Assembly (NCBI GenBank): GCA_026421185.1
Contig: JAPKCH010000020.1
Span: 1 to 32,075 of the forward strand
Length of the DNA stretch: 32,075 bases
Reading direction: 5' to 3'
Origin: Dehalococcoidia bacterium
Lineage (GTDB): Bacteria > Chloroflexota > Dehalococcoidia > Lucifugimonadales > Lucifugimonadaceae
Shown here one piece after another: positions 6,497 through 21,636 of this stretch. How positions within the stretch are numbered: position 1 is the stretch's first letter; every line of letters starts with the position of its first letter. Both the position numbers and the translations under genes were made by a program. Under the pieces are notes generated by a model that worked only from the letters and a program-made list of their open reading frames with translations, was not told where the DNA came from and made no database searches.

Positions 6497-6820
6497 ATGA
6501 TTCGATTAGTAAAAATTGTTCCGCTTGCACTAGTTACCGTTGCCGTAGTGTTTATAGCGTTCGGAATCTCCTCGATTCTTGGCAGTGGAAATACTGTTAG
6601 AGGGAAAGTTTTGAGCGTGGAATCAGCCTCAATCACGACGATATCTACCCTCATTATCGAGGATAGGAGCGGGAAGCAATGGACGTTTAAAGGCTTTGGG
6701 ACTTTCTCTGGGGTTACGCCTTCACATCTTGAAGAGCATCGAGCAAAGCAAGAAAAAGTGACAGTCGAATATAAGGAAATGAATAGTGGCGATCTATCTA
6801 TAGTTGGGGTATCCGACTAG
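6497..6820 (+). CDS. Small membrane-anchored protein of unknown function
   Basis: A 107-residue product: a basic start (MIRLVK), one hydrophobic segment at about residues 6-28, then a soluble beta-rich part of about 75 residues containing TLIIEDRSGKQWTFKG and ending in SIVGVSD. The layout suggests a protein anchored by an uncleaved signal with a small outside domain, perhaps of OB type (inference from strand pattern only). There is no cysteine lipobox and no recognised family. No Shine-Dalgarno is seen; a leaderless start is possible given the hairpin and TATTAT before the ATG. It converges with the next gene and their stop codons overlap on a shared CTAG (6817-6820). Confidence 0.6.
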   Translation: MIRLVKIVPLALVTVAVVFIAFGISSILGSGNTVRGKVLSVESASITTISTLIIEDRSGKQWTFKGFGTFSGVTPSHLEEHRAKQEKVTVEYKEMNSGDLSIVGVSD

Positions 6821-7725
6821 GCGCCTGTGAGCACTGGCAGCAGATATTCTTCGATCTCTTCAAGTGTTACGAATGCTTCAAAGCGACCGACGACTATTCC
6901 ATTTACGTCGACCACAAATGTCCACGGCTCGGTGTGAAACTCCCACTCGTGTATAACCGGTGACTCTATGCCGAGAGAAGGATCCCCAGCTGCGAGCATT
7001 TCTTCAGGGTTGTCGAATATTTCGACGTGTATGAAGTTGGCTAGCCCTTTGTATTTGTCGTCTAATTTCGAAAGGACCTCGGTTTGCGGTCCACAGGTAG
7101 CCGATTGGCAGTAGGCAGGGGTAGAGAACGAAATAACGGTTGGCTTCCCTGTAGCAACGGCTTCATCGAAGCTGATGGCATAAATATCGGCATCCGGTTC
7201 AGGCGCGCTGGTTATTGATCTAAGGTTTCCGTCTGATGGCTCGGTTTTGGTGGGCGTCAGAGGGGCTGCATCACCGATATCAGGAGCTTCAGTAGCCGAT
7301 TTTACTAGTATTCCTGATCCTGCCGGTAGCAGTGAATTGTCTGACTTCGATCGAACCTTGATATTCCAGAAGCCAACTTCATCGAATGTCATCGTCGCGG
7401 TGTAGTTTCCACTTTGTATTGGCCATTCTCGCCATTTGAGGTCTTCCACTACATACGCCACATCTGACTCAGGCGCTGTATAGGTGATTTCAAGTTCATC
7501 GGCTCTGCCATCAAAGCGAGAACCATCGATCATCTGAATGTTGAGAGGAATCCTCGCAGTGCCTAGTCCGACATCCGACGCCGCTGCAAATACAACAAAC
7601 GCTTCGATTTCCGAATCCTTCGTAGGGTCGGCAGATGTCGAGCAGCCGACTGCTGCAAGTACGAATAGGAACAGTGAGCTTATTAGACCAATAGATGATT
7701 TGCTCAATGTGAATGTTTTCCTCAA
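6817..7725 (-). CDS. Lipoprotein with FixH/Ig-like and thioredoxin-like domains
   Basis: A 302-residue membrane-anchored redox-type protein. The signal peptide ends in LAAVGC (C28 lipidated). Residues about 40-140 form a beta-sandwich-like region resembling FixH/YtkA-type domains (IPLNIQMIDGS, GFWNIKVRS). After a proline-rich linker comes a thioredoxin-like domain with an unusual CQSATC pair (C206, C211: four residues between, not CxxC) and a cis-proline candidate in TEPWTF (P267). The four-residue spacing argues against a classical TlpA oxidoreductase; a metallochaperone or SCO/peroxiredoxin-like role is possible (inference). The start is TTG at 7723-7725, supported by GAAGG seven bases upstream; no ATG fits. 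Confidence 0.8.
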   Translation of the reverse strand: MRKTFTLSKSSIGLISSLFLFVLAAVGCSTSADPTKDSEIEAFVVFAAASDVGLGTARIPLNIQMIDGSRFDGRADELEITYTAPESDVAYVVEDLKWREWPIQSGNYTATMTFDEVGFWNIKVRSKSDNSLLPAGSGILVKSATEAPDIGDAAPLTPTKTEPSDGNLRSITSAPEPDADIYAISFDEAVATGKPTVISFSTPAYCQSATCGPQTEVLSKLDDKYKGLANFIHVEIFDNPEEMLAAGDPSLGIESPVIHEWEFHTEPWTFVVDVNGIVVGRFEAFVTLEEIEEYLLPVLTGA

Positions 7726-7947: not shown

Positions 7948-8868
7948 ATGCCAATACCTACCTCAGACCCGATTATTGTCGCACCGACAAATATGCCGTT
8001 TCGTGCCGATGAGTCACTTAATCTCGACGCACTGGCAAGAAACGTGGACAAATTTTCGAATACAGCGCTTTCTGGGTTTGTTGTAGGTAGCTATGGCGGA
8101 GAAGAGTTTCACATGGGGGAACCCGAGAAGATTTCAGCCATCAAGACCGTTGTGGAAGCTCACACCGGCCGCAAGTTTGTGATTGCTGGAATCGATGCAC
8201 TTTCTCCTACAGAGGCGGTCAGGCTGGCCAACATGTACGCCGATGCTGGAGCTGACATGGTTCGAGTGCGAATCCCTTCGGCTAACCGTGGTGTAAACAG
8301 CGCACCGATTCAGGATTACTTTGAACAGGTCACCAAAGCCAGTCCCGTCCCGGTCGTCATAATTCATCAGCCAAAGACGGTGATGGGGACCGACATCACG
8401 AAGGAAGAACTTCGTGATCTCACCGCATTTGACAACGTGTTCGCGTACATTATGTCGCTGAACTACCGATATGAGTGTCGATTGGCTCAGTTCGTAAATG
8501 AACAGGTAAAACTCTGGACCTGTAACGGGACACTTCTTATGCCGGGTGGAATGATCGGTGCAGTAGGGGCGTGCTTGCTATTTGGTAACTGGGGACCACA
8601 CATCGCGCGTGACATCATTCAGGCCTGTCTTGACGGTCGATACGCCGAAGCTCGCGAGATGCAGGAGCGAATCAACCGAGTGGACGCGGCTGGTATGGGG
8701 TGGGGAGTCGGCGTGCAAAAAGCCGGACTGACTTTGATGGGTTACGAAGGCACTGTTCCCAGAAGGCCAAACCTACCGCTCTCAGAGGCTCAAATCACAG
8801 AGATGAAATTGGCGTTGATCGAAGCACAAATCATGAACCCGGATGGAACTCCTGCACCTCAAATATAG
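7948..8868 (+). CDS. DapA-family (class I aldolase fold) protein lacking the usual lysine
   Basis: A 306-residue TIM-barrel protein of the dihydrodipicolinate synthase/N-acetylneuraminate lyase family. Family features: FVVGSYGGEEFHMGEPEK (residues 44-61) matches the GTTGE substrate loop, and PVPVVIIHQPKTVMGTDIT (133-151) matches the Y-N-x-P strand. The canonical residues are replaced: H140 stands where the tyrosine should be, and FAYIMSLNYR (165-174) stands where the Schiff-base lysine motif GIK should be, with I or M for lysine. The fold is therefore clear but ordinary pyruvate-imine chemistry is not expected. It is first in an operon with an RraA-like gene (57 bases on) and an enolase-superfamily gene, so a part in sugar-acid breakdown is the natural guess. 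The ribosome binding site is weak. Confidence 0.85.
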   Translation: MPIPTSDPIIVAPTNMPFRADESLNLDALARNVDKFSNTALSGFVVGSYGGEEFHMGEPEKISAIKTVVEAHTGRKFVIAGIDALSPTEAVRLANMYADAGADMVRVRIPSANRGVNSAPIQDYFEQVTKASPVPVVIIHQPKTVMGTDITKEELRDLTAFDNVFAYIMSLNYRYECRLAQFVNEQVKLWTCNGTLLMPGGMIGAVGACLLFGNWGPHIARDIIQACLDGRYAEAREMQERINRVDAAGMGWGVGVQKAGLTLMGYEGTVPRRPNLPLSEAQITEMKLALIEAQIMNPDGTPAPQI

Positions 8869-8925
8869 GTGTAGTTTTTTGTCGTAAATTCGCTCTTTAC
8901 ATGCCCATATTTCACTAAGGACGCT

Positions 8926-9777
8926 ATGAACTTAACGAATCCCGAAATGATCCGAGCTGTTACTAGTAAATGGTTTGGCGATCGAGATGCAAACGGTCGA
9001 CCGTTGGTTCCGGACGATATTCTCGAACGTATGAAACTTGTGACCACCGAAGAAGCGTGGAGCACATGCAAACGAAACGACTATCACTTTCAGTTTGCCG
9101 GTGATTGGATGAACCTTCATCCAGGTCGAGTGATCGTTGGTAGGGCAGTCACTTGCCGGTGGGTTCCCCGTCGACCAGACTTGCACGACTCGATCGACAA
9201 GCAGGGTCAAGCGGACCAACGAGTTGGATTCCAAAACTCATGGGTAATTGATGAGCTAGAAAACAACGACCTAATCGTGGTCGATTTGTTCGGAAAGATT
9301 TATAATGGCACATTCGCTGGAGATAACCTCGCAATTGCGATCAAATCACGTTCAGGAACTGGAATGGTGATCGACGGCGGAATTCGTGACACACAACGAA
9401 TTCTTGAAATGGACGATTTCAATGCCTTCGTGCGTGGTGTTGACCCAAGTGCGATTCTCGATGTAAGCATGCCTGAAATAAACGGCATCACACGTATTGG
9501 GGAAGCAACGTGCGTACCGGGTGATGTTGTTCTAGGAACCAGCACAGGAGTGATCTTCATTCCGCCTCACTTGGCGCTTGAGGTTGTGGAACGATCGGAA
9601 GTGATTCGTTTGAAGGATGAGTTTGGTCAAGAGCGTATTCGCGAGGGTGTATACACACCGGGCGAAGTCGACCGGAAATTCTCAGATGAGATGGGCAAAG
9701 ATTTTGAAGAATGGAAAGCTAACCGTCTGAATCAGTCGGTTAGCTGCTCTGCTAAGTTCGAAAACAAGGAAAATTAG
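8926..9777 (+). CDS. RraA-family protein, possible oxoacid aldolase/decarboxylase
   Basis: A 283-residue protein of the RraA / 4-hydroxy-4-methyl-2-oxoglutarate aldolase family, often mislabelled as a demethylmenaquinone methyltransferase. Members cleave 4-hydroxy-2-oxoacids or decarboxylate oxaloacetate with a divalent metal. Key blocks are AGDNLAIAIKSRSGTGMVID and GGIRD (R154, D155), the conserved substrate and metal site. The N-terminal 65 residues and a C-terminal tail make it longer than the ~160-residue RNase-E regulator, which fits the enzymatic branch. The ATG follows CTAAGGACGCT, a good Shine-Dalgarno. It sits 57 bases after the DapA-like gene and 4 bases before the enolase-like gene, so translational coupling is likely. 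A role in cleaving a keto-deoxy acid made by the dehydratase is inferred. Confidence 0.85.
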   Translation: MNLTNPEMIRAVTSKWFGDRDANGRPLVPDDILERMKLVTTEEAWSTCKRNDYHFQFAGDWMNLHPGRVIVGRAVTCRWVPRRPDLHDSIDKQGQADQRVGFQNSWVIDELENNDLIVVDLFGKIYNGTFAGDNLAIAIKSRSGTGMVIDGGIRDTQRILEMDDFNAFVRGVDPSAILDVSMPEINGITRIGEATCVPGDVVLGTSTGVIFIPPHLALEVVERSEVIRLKDEFGQERIREGVYTPGEVDRKFSDEMGKDFEEWKANRLNQSVSCSAKFENKEN

Positions 9778-9781
9778 TAAA

Positions 9782-11086
9782 TTGGTAGATCAGAACACAA
9801 GTGCAGTTGATCAGGTAAAGACTTCTTCAAGTCCGTCTGACCTTCGTATTACCGACATGCGAATCGCAGTCGTCGGTGGTGGAGGGTGGCGATGGCCGAT
9901 CATCAAGCTAGAAACCAACCAGGGATTAGTTGGTATAGGTGAAGTACGTGACGGTGCATCTGCTCGTTACGCTCTCATGCTCAAGAGTCGATTGCTCGGT
10001 GAAAACCCATGTGACATCGACCGGCTATTCCAGAAAATCAAACCTTTTGGTGGGCATGGTCGACTCGGTGGCGGCGTTTGCGGTATCGAAATGGCTCTCT
10101 GTGACGTCGCTGGTAAAGCATATGGCGTTCCGGCTTACATGTTTGCTGGCGGTAAGTACCGCGACAATGTGAAGGTTTACGCCGACACCCCTACGAAGAA
10201 AGACCCTGAAGAAATGGGCAAACTTCTGAAGGAACGAATGGATCGTGGTTTCGAATTCCTGAAGATGGATATCGGGACTTGGATCGCCGAAGAGACCGAG
10301 GGTGGGGTTATCAATAAGAAGATTTCGCAAGAATCGAACACTTTGATGCACCCGTTCACCGGCATTCAGGTTACTGACTACGGTATTTCCATGATGCAAG
10401 AATATGTTTCAACGGTTCGAGACATCATCGGATACGAGATTCCGTTAGCGTCCGATCACTTCGGTCACATGGGTGTTGAGAACGCTATTCGTATTGGTAA
10501 AGCTCTCGACCAGTACACACTTGCTTGGTATGAAGACATGATTCCGTGGCAGTTCGTCGACCAGTGGCAGGCACTCAAAGCCGGCGTCGATACTCCAGTC
10601 TGTACAGGTGAGGATATTTACACTCTCGATGGCTTCAAACCTCTTGTAGATGGCCGAGCGATCTCTGTTGCTCACCCTGACCTCGCAACATCTGGCGGAA
10701 TTATCGAAACCAAGCGAATTGCCGACTACTGCCGAGACGCAGGTATCGGTGTAGCGCTTCACCAAGCTGGTTCGCCAGTTGTCGCAATGGCAAACGCTCA
10801 TTCAGCTATGGCAATGGAAAACTTCATTGCTCTTGAAATGCACTCTGTTGACAACCCGTGGTGGAACGACATCGTTGACCTTGTAGGTCAAGAGGGCGAC
10901 ATGATCCAGAATGGTTACGTGAATGTAACTGATGCTCCTGGCCTTGGTTTGGAAATCAATGAAGAAGCAGTTGCTGAGAACCTTGCTAAGGAGAGCGAAG
11001 CTCGTGCAGGTGTCTACCCTGCGGGCGTTTTTGAAGACACATCAGAGTGGGACCAACTCGATGCTCACGACCGTGTATGGAGCTAA
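9782..11086 (+). CDS. Enolase-superfamily (mandelate racemase/muconate lactonizing) dehydratase-like protein
   Basis: A 434-residue protein with the N-terminal capping domain (from about residue 21, LRITDMRIAV) and a C-terminal barrel. Barrel landmarks: K161-x-D163 in EFLKMDIG, SDHFGH with D225 and H226/H229, YEDMIP (E251), GEDIY (E277), AHPDLATSGG and H327 in VALHQAG. This suits magnesium-dependent abstraction of an alpha proton from an acid sugar (dehydratase or racemase). The proposed start is TTG at 9782-9784, with AAGGA 11 bases upstream; it adds about 20 polar residues. The ATG at codon 26 (MRIAVV) is the alternative. It is last in the DapA-like/RraA-like operon, with a strong terminator 25 bases on. 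Confidence 0.9.
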   Translation: MVDQNTSAVDQVKTSSSPSDLRITDMRIAVVGGGGWRWPIIKLETNQGLVGIGEVRDGASARYALMLKSRLLGENPCDIDRLFQKIKPFGGHGRLGGGVCGIEMALCDVAGKAYGVPAYMFAGGKYRDNVKVYADTPTKKDPEEMGKLLKERMDRGFEFLKMDIGTWIAEETEGGVINKKISQESNTLMHPFTGIQVTDYGISMMQEYVSTVRDIIGYEIPLASDHFGHMGVENAIRIGKALDQYTLAWYEDMIPWQFVDQWQALKAGVDTPVCTGEDIYTLDGFKPLVDGRAISVAHPDLATSGGIIETKRIADYCRDAGIGVALHQAGSPVVAMANAHSAMAMENFIALEMHSVDNPWWNDIVDLVGQEGDMIQNGYVNVTDAPGLGLEINEEAVAENLAKESEARAGVYPAGVFEDTSEWDQLDAHDRVWS

Positions 11087-11110
11087 CGCTCAAGTTAATT
11101 ACTGAACTTA

Positions 11111-11148
11111 AAAGGCCACCGAAGGTAAACCTTCGGTGGCCTTTTTTA
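11111..11148 (+). terminator. Rho-independent terminator after the three-gene catabolic operon
   Basis: A perfect 15-bp stem, AAAGGCCACCGAAGG pairing with CCTTCGGTGGCCTTT, with loop TAAA, followed by a run of T on the plus strand. The A run before the stem means it could also act on the minus strand. Confidence 0.92.
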
Positions 11149-15099: not shown

Positions 15100-16242
15100 C
15101 TAGATGTACGCGATCGAGTTGTCAGGGTTAACTCTGTCTCCACGGTGCCATGACTTTCGGTACGGCTTGTTCGTAAATTCTTCCTCAACAATGTCTATTC
15201 CTAGTCCAGGACCTTCTGGAATCGGGTAGTAGCCATCAACTGGTTCGACAATGTTGGTTACTGATGCAATCTCGAATGACGTGAGTGTTCGTGATTCTTG
15301 GACTAGGAAGTTTGAAGTGGCTGTATCGAAGTGAAGATTCGTTATGCTGGCGAGAGGGCCCATCGGATTGTGTGGCGCAACTACAAGATCGTGAGCTTCT
15401 GCCATGAATGCAATTTTGCGCATTTCGGTTAGCCCTCCCACGATACAGACCTCGGGCTGAATGATGTCGACTCCTCCTTCACGGATTAGATCCCACATTT
15501 CAAACTTGGTGTACAAGCATTCTCCCGTTGCCAATGCACACTGCATTTTGTCTCTGAGCTTACCCATTTCATATCGATTTTCCATTCGAATAGGCTCTTC
15601 CATGAACCACGGACTGTACTCCATGAGTACGTCTGTTAGTTCAAGAACCCTAATTGGTTCGTAGATCGCGGCATGAGCGTCGAATCCGACATCGATATCG
15701 TCACCCACTGCGTCGCGTACAGCTTTGAATCGAGCTGTTGCATCAGTAAGAGCATCGTTCCAACGCATTTCACGCCAATTTGGTGATAGCGGGCTCGCTT
15801 TAAGCGCCGTGTAGCCCTGGTCGACGAATTTCCGAGCATTATCTCCAAGTTCTTGCGGGCTGTTTCCGTGAATGTCCCAGTACGCACGAATCTTGTCTCG
15901 TACTTTGCCGCCCATTAATTCGTAGACAGGTTTGTCGAGAACTTTGCCTGTGATGTCCCACAATGAAACGTCGATCGCCGAGAGTGCGGCAAGACCTGAT
16001 GATCCGATAGGGAATCGTGCGCCTTGATAGCAAAGTGCCCAGTTTCGTTCGATCTCAGTAGGATCTTGACCAACTAATTGCTCAGCAAAGTACTCGATCC
16101 AAACTGTTGAAGCCATGTCGGGACCGACGTGGTATACCTCGCCGACACCGTGAATGCCGGCATCAGTGTGAGTTCTGACGTAGGCAAGATTGCCCGCTGC
16201 GGGGTCAGATCCAATAAGTGTTTCTATTTTTGTGATTTTCAT
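15100..16242 (-). CDS. Enolase-superfamily sugar-acid dehydratase-like protein (paralogue A)
   Basis: A 380-residue mandelate racemase/muconate lactonizing protein of the galactonate-dehydratase-like type. The capping domain starts MKITKIETL. Barrel residues: K148 in YTALKAS; metal ligands D188 (with H190, GFDAHAA), E215 or E216 (FMEEP) and E241 (ATGECLY); and the general base H291 in VAPHNPMGP, followed by the usual GL/G-rich C-terminus. The set is complete, so it should be an active magnesium enzyme, most likely dehydrating an aldonic acid to a keto-deoxy acid. It lies 48 bases after paralogue B on the same strand and shares the unusual SPL..NWRE(M/I).W insert, so they are tandem duplicates. 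No clear Shine-Dalgarno. Confidence 0.92.
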   Translation of the reverse strand: MKITKIETLIGSDPAAGNLAYVRTHTDAGIHGVGEVYHVGPDMASTVWIEYFAEQLVGQDPTEIERNWALCYQGARFPIGSSGLAALSAIDVSLWDITGKVLDKPVYELMGGKVRDKIRAYWDIHGNSPQELGDNARKFVDQGYTALKASPLSPNWREMRWNDALTDATARFKAVRDAVGDDIDVGFDAHAAIYEPIRVLELTDVLMEYSPWFMEEPIRMENRYEMGKLRDKMQCALATGECLYTKFEMWDLIREGGVDIIQPEVCIVGGLTEMRKIAFMAEAHDLVVAPHNPMGPLASITNLHFDTATSNFLVQESRTLTSFEIASVTNIVEPVDGYYPIPEGPGLGIDIVEEEFTNKPYRKSWHRGDRVNPDNSIAYI

Positions 16243-16290
16243 TTTTAGATATTTTCGTTATGAAGAGAGGTATTTGAATTGATAATTGGC

Positions 16291-17430
16291 TTAGAGGAAT
16301 CCTGGTGAACCATCTCTGTACGTAGCAAAACCTCTGTCCCAATGGGCTGGTGGGTTAGCCGCAATCGCCTCGTGATTCAAGGTCATACCCAGTCCTGCTT
16401 GAGCAGGTAATTCGAAATACCCGTTCACAGGAACCCAAGATTCGTTTATAAACTCGGATTTTTTCTTCTTGTGATCGCCATGCCATTCGAGAATGGCAAA
16501 GTTGTTGATCGAAGCAGCGTGATGGACTCCGGCTGCTGTTGAAAGCAGTCCAAGCGGATTGTGTGGAGCAACTGTCACATAGTGGGCTTCAGCGACAGCC
16601 GCTATTTTCTTTGCCTCGAGGAGTCCACCGCAGCAGAGCAGGTCAGGCTGAATAATGTCGACTGCATCTGCATTTAGCAGCTCTGTGTATCGATGAAGAC
16701 CGTAGAGGTTCTCACCTGTCGCAAGAGCAACTCTGAACTCACGTCTTAGTTCGGCACTTGATTCGATGAACTCTGCACGAGCAGGTTCTTCGATGAACAT
16801 GAGTCGATACGGTGTGATTACTCTGGCGAGTTCGAGTGATAGCGCTGTTTCACGAATAGCAACGTGAACATCTACTGCTAAATCAGGACTGTCACCGATC
16901 GCATCGCGGATAGCCGCCATTCGTTCATCGGCTTCACGTAATGCCTGTCGCCACGGAATTTCGCGCCAATTCGAGGGAAGCGGACTTGTTTTGAACGCCG
17001 AATAACCTTCGTCCATCAATTCAACAGCGTGTTGACCAACTGCCGACGGAGAATCACCGTAAATACCGTGATAGACACGTACTCGATCTCGGGTTTTACC
17101 GCCTAGTAGGCTGTACACAGGAAGATTCACTGCCTTGCCTGCGATATCCCAAAGAGCGAGATCTATTCCTGAAATAGCGGACCATGCAACTTGTCCCAAT
17201 GGGAAGCGCATCGTGTTCTTTACTCGGCGAATCAACCACTCAATGCGGCTAGGATCTTGGTCCACGAACCACGGCTTCATCTCATCGATCATCGATATCA
17301 CGCTTCGATCCGGCCCAATTGAGTAGGACTCTCCAACACCGGTGACCCCTTCGTCAGTTTCTATCTCAAGAAATATGCTGTTTCGTTGTCCATCGTTAGC
17401 GTGGAACGTTTTGATATCGGTGATTTTCAT
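16291..17430 (-). CDS. Enolase-superfamily sugar-acid dehydratase-like protein (paralogue B)
   Basis: A 379-residue homologue of the next gene downstream, with the same architecture: MKITDIKTF start, K147 in YSAFKTS, metal ligands D187 (with H189, AVDVHVA), E214/E215 (FIEEP) and E240 (ATGENLY), and H290 in VAPHNPLG. It differs from paralogue A around the substrate loops: CCGG instead of IVGG after the QPD/QPE strand, and a lysine run (HKKKKSE) near residue 330. The substrate may therefore differ. It is first in a two-gene operon; the start at 17428-17430 has only a weak GGA site. The divergent NfeD gene starts 145 bases away, so the promoters lie in 17431-17575. Confidence 0.92.
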   Translation of the reverse strand: MKITDIKTFHANDGQRNSIFLEIETDEGVTGVGESYSIGPDRSVISMIDEMKPWFVDQDPSRIEWLIRRVKNTMRFPLGQVAWSAISGIDLALWDIAGKAVNLPVYSLLGGKTRDRVRVYHGIYGDSPSAVGQHAVELMDEGYSAFKTSPLPSNWREIPWRQALREADERMAAIRDAIGDSPDLAVDVHVAIRETALSLELARVITPYRLMFIEEPARAEFIESSAELRREFRVALATGENLYGLHRYTELLNADAVDIIQPDLLCCGGLLEAKKIAAVAEAHYVTVAPHNPLGLLSTAAGVHHAASINNFAILEWHGDHKKKKSEFINESWVPVNGYFELPAQAGLGMTLNHEAIAANPPAHWDRGFATYRDGSPGFL

Positions 17431-20823: not shown

Positions 20824-21636
20824 ATGGCAAAATTGGGTGACTACGAATTCCCTGAAATCGGTCTGGTCGAAAGCATCGAACTAGGACAGAAAATTGCACG
20901 TGAATTCGCGGGGGAAGTTTCTCGTCAAGGACTTGCTCGATCTTTAGGCATGTCGGAGCGTGGCGGTGCTTTCTCAGCTCGACTTGGCGCACTCCGTATG
21001 TGGGGTGTCGCTGGAGGTCGTAGTAGAGTTCGGGTCACCCGAGACGGTTTGAGAGCGGTTACGCCGCTGTCAGTGAAAGAGAGTGAAGAAGCACGAGTTC
21101 AACTTGCGCGTAACGTTGCACTGTTCACAGAGATGTCGACTCGACTCGGAGATCAGCCGTACGCACCTGATCGATTTGCCGTACTGCTTGAAGAACTTTC
21201 CGGTGCGAACCGTACAGAAGTCGCACGGCGACTCCCACTAATCGATCGTATTTTCAGCGAAGCACGCTCGTATTTGCCTAAAGAAGCATCAAACATTACT
21301 TCAGTCGCCGCACAGTTCCGTGTTCCAGAGTCGTCAAAGGCTTCGACATATACTCCACCATCTTTCGCTTCTATTGAACCGGATGGACGGACTCAATTTG
21401 AGAATCCAGAAGCTGGAGAGACCGTCAGGCAATCAGAGATTCAGGTTCAAGCCGTACCGCAAGCTTACCGGATCGAACTTAGTCTGGCGGATGGAAAGAT
21501 TTCGCTGCCTGAGACTCTTTCGAATTTGGACGCAACGTTGACTGTGCTGTGGGCTCGAAGGCAATTGATAGCAGCAATCGATGCCGCCGAGGGCAAGGAA
21601 ACTTCAACTCCACCGAGAGATTTCACAAGCCGTTAA
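20824..21636 (+). CDS. Hypothetical protein, possible winged-helix N-terminus
   Basis: A 270-residue protein I do not recognise. Residues about 20-70 (SRQGLARSLGMSERGGAFSA, then LGALRMWGVAG and RVRVTRDG) resemble a winged helix-turn-helix: a helix with the LARSLGMS pattern, a recognition-like helix, and an arginine-rich wing. A helical middle (80-155) and a low-complexity proline/serine linker (160-205) follow, and residues 210-260 form a compact end domain (LSLADGKISLPETL). No membrane segment or signal peptide. The ATG follows TAAGGAA with good spacing. It stands alone between a long empty region and a convergent gene. A DNA-binding regulator is possible but not shown. Confidence 0.7.
   Translation: MAKLGDYEFPEIGLVESIELGQKIAREFAGEVSRQGLARSLGMSERGGAFSARLGALRMWGVAGGRSRVRVTRDGLRAVTPLSVKESEEARVQLARNVALFTEMSTRLGDQPYAPDRFAVLLEELSGANRTEVARRLPLIDRIFSEARSYLPKEASNITSVAAQFRVPESSKASTYTPPSFASIEPDGRTQFENPEAGETVRQSEIQVQAVPQAYRIELSLADGKISLPETLSNLDATLTVLWARRQLIAAIDAAEGKETSTPPRDFTSR

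Follow-up and report, generated by a model that had tools for sequence, protein, structure and literature searches.

A lysine-less clade of DapA-fold proteins in SAR202 Chloroflexota and its predicted imine-free role beside sugar-acid genes

Proteins of the DHDPS/NAL superfamily are described in a 2026 paper as having a catalytic lysine (PMC13398020). HOGA requires both Lys196 and Tyr168, its relay is completed by Tyr140', and the x positions of the G-x-x-G-E loop bind carboxylate (PMC3188589). In SAR202 bacteria, Lim et al. (2023; PMC10444878) assign COG0329, COG4948 and other paralogue sets to non-phosphorylative sugar-acid routes, and count COG0329 among seven sets of paralogues for sugar and sugar-acid pathways. 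A literature search covering mostly papers available without subscription returned no description of lysine-less DHDPS members and no paper joining SAR202, enolase and dihydrodipicolinate.

The window (the whole stretch of 32,075 nucleotides analysed here) encodes a protein of this fold, followed on the same strand by two further genes and a hairpin:

7948 to 8868, + strand: DapA-fold protein of the lysine-less SAR202 clade (306 amino acids, intact open reading frame)
8926 to 9777, + strand: RraA-like protein, by family profile; begins 57 bases after the 7948-8868 gene
9782 to 11086, + strand: enolase-superfamily (MR_MLE) acid-sugar dehydratase-like protein, by family profile; begins 4 bases after the RraA-like gene
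11110 to 11145, + strand: terminator-like hairpin of 16 pairs and then T-rich sequence, after the third gene

The 7948-8868 gene is a genuine, intact gene that evolves under purifying selection. Its product has the conserved domain PF00701 (DHDPS; E-value: 4.1e-26, 91.8 bits against a cut-off of 22.1) over its full length, and the same profile matches all 21 aligned members of the lysine-less clade described below. None of the NCBIfam equivalogs matches the protein at its own cut-off; TIGR00674 (DapA) scores 75.4 bits, below its cut-off of 206.15. The profile and an AlphaFold model (built with 25 sequences; pLDDT 80.2, pTM 0.84) indicate a (beta/alpha)8 barrel with C-terminal helices, and the model aligns with DHDPS and human HOG aldolase structures at Z 30-32 over 283-289 residues (VIA-align). 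Foldseek agrees with VIA-align, the matches listed being DHDPS/NAL-fold chains. The DapA fold claimed in the initial annotation of this DNA is thus borne out, with a Z of about 32 to both DHDPS and human HOGA. Kinship with PEP mutase and isocitrate lyase was considered and set aside: PF13714 reaches 1.5e-5, below its cut-off, and is matched by 8 of 21 members, which was put down to barrel similarity.

E. coli DapA and human HOGA align without gaps over both catalytic motifs of the protein. The segment P135-V-V-I-I139-H140-Q141-P142 falls on P-V-V-L-Y-S-V-P of HOGA and N163-V-F-A-Y167-I168-M169 falls on N-I-V-G-M-K-D, such that the Y-N-x-P column reads I139-H140-Q141-P142 and the G-I-K column reads A166-Y167-I168. 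Both catalytic positions, those of the Schiff-base lysine on strand 6 and of the relay tyrosine on strand 5 (a Gln or Glu in some subgroups of the superfamily), are isoleucine. The initial annotation had correctly recognized that the two residues are missing but named their replacements (H140 and M169) one position too far along; in both alignments the tyrosine column is I139 and the lysine column I168. These losses extend to the whole clade. The lysine column contains I in 62, V in 2 and N in 1 of 65 distinct relatives, so that a lysine at this position, which the same annotation had proposed to look for among homologues, occurs in 0 of 65 clade members. The relay tyrosine column contains I in 61 and M in 3 of 64. 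The relay's third tyrosine, known as Tyr107' in E. coli and as Tyr140' in HOGA, is missing as well: none of 64 clade relatives has a Tyr at positions 111-114; a Tyr is found at 113 in 23 of 27 HOGA-like relatives. G51 and E52 of the G-x-x-G-E loop are kept in 64 of 64, and the x positions are mainly Y/A/E/H and G/N/S, where the HOGA-like proteins have S and N. Because the fold and profile are those of the family and the lysine and tyrosine are absent, the protein is not classified as a class I pyruvate aldolase. It is placed instead in a clade that has the DHDPS/NAL fold but no lysine.

The extent of this clade was assessed by profile and protein searches over the family, order and phylum, from which part of the matches were fetched and 109 distinct open frames were read. 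These frames split cleanly into 65 scoring at least 200 bits, all without the lysine, and 44 scoring 189 bits or less, all with it (27 HOGA-like proteins of other Chloroflexota, 4 proteins of E. coli, 9 paralogues from the same genome and 4 proteins from related genomes). The lysine is present in 27/27 HOGA-like and 17/17 other DHDPS proteins compared. Three clade matches have an internal stop near the C-terminal end or lie on draft contigs (e.g., L015, where the frame ends early), and their open part was counted. In a tree of 95 rows, calculated by a quick method, the 64 full-length clade members lie on one side of a single branch (support 100, length 2.21), with the HOGA-like proteins nearest to them; since they form one side of one branch, the lysine would most simply have been lost once. 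Scanning the genome collection for the pattern yielded 26 loci, every one of them labelled as Chloroflexi, Dehalococcoidia, SAR202 or Ca. Lucifugimonas. Among 400 genomes of the phylum, matches above 200 bits occur in only 3, all from the window's own family; there are 59 weaker matches, and the 27 of them that were read all have the lysine. Plasmid searches with two clade members returned, among the rows listed, only distant DHDPS proteins of about 24-30% identity. Within the collections searched, the lysine-less clade is found only in SAR202 Chloroflexota. One member, from the cultured strain JH1073 (Ca. Lucifugimonas marina), is 88% identical to the 7948-8868 protein.

The window's own genome contains 11 DHDPS-family genes, two of which lack the lysine: the window gene and a paralogue on contig C3 (41% identity). 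The latter (L155) has as neighbours two MR_MLE-type genes, one SDR gene and one for an HpcH/HpaI aldolase. In six of the nine lysine-bearing paralogues (L005, L006, L007, L008, L127 and L128, on contigs C14, C99, C85, C65, C77 and C69, respectively), the relay tyrosine is replaced by Gln. These Gln-type proteins are a separate subgroup with altered relay chemistry.

The clade has acquired conserved residues of its own. E53, R106, R108 and Q141 (each 64/64) and Y167 and E176 (each 65/65) are present in every row covering them, and D83 (61/64, with 3 E), H140 (61/64, with 3 N), R174 (63/65), W190 (64/65) and N193 (63/65) are nearly invariant. The outgroups differ at all of these positions. C209 is likewise found in at least 95% of clade rows. 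With barrel strands 2-8 placed as in the AlphaFold model, most of the new residues lie on them or directly behind them, at the active-site end of the fold. H140 and Y167 would have outward strand parity should Y133 and K161 of DapA face inward. Within the clade, conservation is higher on the catalytic face (0.714) than on the face opposite (0.629; permutation p 0.012, from 25 rows after thinning at 75% identity). The HOGA-like proteins with the lysine show the same, with a somewhat larger contrast (0.783 vs 0.654, p 0.0005; 21 rows). In two orthologue pairs unsaturated at synonymous sites, dN/dS is about 0.03-0.045 (dN 0.009/dS 0.326 and dN 0.028/dS 0.624); pairs that include the window gene itself are saturated. 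A decaying or degenerate gene is ruled out by the full-length frames, this low ratio in the unsaturated pairs and the fixed residues.

The initial annotation placed the gene at the head of an operon with the RraA-like and enolase-like genes behind it. This arrangement is seen in the window and in most congeners and fails elsewhere, as in genus g7, where the lysine-less gene has no adjacent partner (0/5 loci). Among 15 congeneric loci with enough flanking sequence, the dehydratase gene is downstream in all 15, with the RraA-like gene in between in 13; in the other two, the RraA-like gene is on another contig. The three genes are also absent together, with 17 of the 19 genomes in the window's genus having all three and two (G047 and G058; 84% and 89% complete) having none. 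In genus g5, the lysine-less gene adjoins the dehydratase gene without an RraA-like gene (3/3 loci). Conversely, the RraA-like and dehydratase genes are paired in 6 of 9 genomes of genus g10, four of these six lacking any match to the window protein (E 1e-20) and two carrying one on another contig. The pair would therefore be a module of its own, joined by the lysine-less gene in some lineages. As the pair stands without a lysine-less gene in G061, G063, G065 and G067, it presumably needs no lysine-less protein for cleavage. In other clades the neighbours vary and include genes for an oxidoreductase, an alpha/beta hydrolase and the methylcitrate cycle.

Several further features of these loci can be described. 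Upstream of the window gene is a divergent gene (6817-7725, - strand) that is syntenic in congeners and has no Pfam or NCBIfam match; its translation is lipoprotein-like, with a thioredoxin-like C-x4-C stretch. Two adjacent MR_MLE genes at 15100-17430 (- strand) are part of a large enolase-superfamily expansion in this lineage, and a 270-amino-acid frame at 20824-21636 (+ strand) has no Pfam match. A weak terminator-like hairpin (8852-8874) is found at the stop codon of the window gene; it was rejected as a conserved attenuator, since 4 of 18 related stretches have a T-run of at least 5, at differing places. At g7 locus L046:5974-10895, the opposite strand beyond the lysine-less gene encodes an HflX-type GTPase, a class I/II aminotransferase and a diaminopimelate epimerase. 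At two loci of genus g6 (L073:4876-6681 and L172:5494-7335), the lysine-less frame is accompanied by a lysine-bearing frame of the Gln type in the same reading frame. The cluster there includes genes for a Na+-decarboxylase beta subunit and TauE, with PrpB, citrate synthase and PrpD (methylcitrate cycle) also at L172.

As read from their sequences, the catalytic motifs of both neighbouring enzymes are intact. In the dehydratase, K161, D163, D225, E251, E277, D300, H327 and E352, which we take to be the catalytic and metal-binding residues of the enolase superfamily, are kept in every covering relative. The RraA-like protein, aligned to 3noj, retains G-D133 and R154-D155, and D133, R154 and D155 are present in all 16 covering rows of 17 RraA-like relatives. 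Class II pyruvate aldolases of the HMG/CHA type have this G-D plus R-D motif for metal binding and catalysis; Arg-123 and the metal ligand Asp-124 are part of it in the P. putida enzyme (PMC5065237).

The proposed explanation, held to be slightly more likely than not, is that the 7948-8868 protein is an imine-free enzyme in a sugar-acid catabolic route. The imine machinery has been replaced, with the nucleophilic Lys and the relay Tyr each changed to Ile, the second relay Tyr lost and the carboxylate-loop positions altered. The arginine pair R106 and R108 may hold a carboxylate, and the group E53/D83/H140/E176 could provide acid-base or divalent-metal catalysis. Candidate substrates are a sugar acid, its lactone or a 2-oxo acid of the same catabolic route as the neighbouring dehydratase; we infer that the protein itself may handle 2-oxoacids. 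Aldol cleavage in this route would more likely be carried out by the metal-dependent RraA-like protein than by the DapA-fold protein. Because an aldolase of class II type and a dehydratase are already present in the operon and the imine residues are missing, a different enzyme of the same route is the simplest reading. Against this explanation are the departures of H140 and R174 from strict invariance, the possible outward parity of H140 and Y167 in a model of pLDDT 80, the missing partners beside the gene in g7, the varying neighbours in other clades and the weak hairpin at the stop codon of the window gene, although the T-run of that hairpin is not conserved. A more ambitious version, held to be less likely than not, is that the barrel was refitted once in SAR202, dropping imine chemistry for a probable arginine/acid or metal site; it would then represent a DapA-fold enzyme class with new catalysis that serves parallel sugar-acid pathways.

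Three other readings of the protein were weighed. An ordinary Schiff-base aldolase with a displaced lysine would suit the fold and the neighbours, which are typical of aldolase pathways, and would have a candidate in K258, the sole invariant lysine of the clade. However, K258 sits in the C-terminal helices and is just as conserved in relatives with the normal lysine (27/27 HOGA-like, 16/17 others), and so gives no sign of being a displaced nucleophile. No other lysine of the protein is invariant across the clade alignment, and the clade has likewise lost its relay tyrosines and, in the G-x-x-G-E loop, the Ser/Thr. A displaced lysine was thus ruled out as a candidate, and the reading as a whole is very improbable. 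As 0 of 65 homologues have the lysine and no displaced nucleophile is indicated, the non-imine mechanism raised in the initial annotation is the better reading, as a prediction from sequence. The main rival, although unlikely, is that the protein is a pseudoenzyme, a non-catalytic structural or regulatory subunit that might, for instance, join a lysine-bearing DHDPS paralogue in mixed tetramers or act as a scaffold or regulator of the dehydratase and RraA-like protein. A regulatory role, also suggested in that annotation, is possible. A pseudoenzyme would account for the loss of every imine-forming residue, and the nine lysine-bearing paralogues in the genome could serve as partners. Its best support is the g6 tandem (L073 and L172), in which a lysine-bearing frame is followed by a lysine-less frame with one stop codon between them; a heteromer of active and lysine-less subunits is possible there. 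Yet the new charged residues are fixed clade-wide, the catalytic face is still conserved and no second DHDPS-family match lies beside the gene in the window or in congeneric loci L038-L062.

The third reading is the sharpest special case of the imine-free explanation: a DapA-fold class II lyase that would use acidic residues to bind a divalent metal and split or decarboxylate a 2-oxo acid without an imine, a conversion from class I to class II inside one fold. The acidic/His set E53, D83, H140 and E176, which would supply the candidate metal ligands, and the Arg pair are fixed or nearly so, and the gene sits with dehydratases whose family makes 2-oxo acids. Against it, the RraA-like protein of the operon already carries a motif of metal-dependent aldolases, and 3 of 64 relatives have Asn in place of H140. 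This special case is considered about as improbable as the pseudoenzyme. The broader explanation, an imine-free enzyme of the route, is preferred to both. As the DHDPS/NAL superfamily is described by its Schiff-base lysine, the clade implies that some COG0329 genes of SAR202 are unlikely to encode imine aldolases, and it would offer a test case of one enzyme fold changing its chemistry. The orthologue in cultured JH1073 makes direct tests possible.

The COG0329 proteins of Lim et al. (2023; PMC10444878) come from the same organism group and functional setting as the 7948-8868 protein; the pathway section of that paper is silent on lysine-less members, whereas 2 of 11 DHDPS-family genes lack the lysine here. 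DapA/DHDPS, N-acetylneuraminate lyase and the KDG-type YagE/YjhH proteins (E. coli, L084-L087) share the barrel, the C-terminal helices and the Pfam DHDPS domain. The DHDPS structures listed are 16-23% identical to the 7948-8868 protein, which lacks their catalytic residues. KdaD, with Glu in place of Tyr, is another departure at the tyrosine position; its substrate is modelled as a Schiff base on the catalytic lysine (PMC13398020), a residue that the 7948-8868 protein does not have. The closest comparison is with HOGA1, which provides both the best PDB profile match (3s5n; 7.7e-40) and a shared fold (3s5o; Z 32.1, 288 residues aligned, 21% identity). HOGA1 and the HOGA-like proteins of other Chloroflexota largely have in common with the clade the G-E of the G-x-x-G-E loop, N214, K258, R272 and P274. 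In contrast, Lys196, Tyr168 and Tyr140' of HOGA correspond to Ile, Ile and a residue other than Tyr in the 7948-8868 protein, the Ser77 position is variable in the clade, and R106, R108, E53, Q141, Y167 and E176 are new relative to HOGA.
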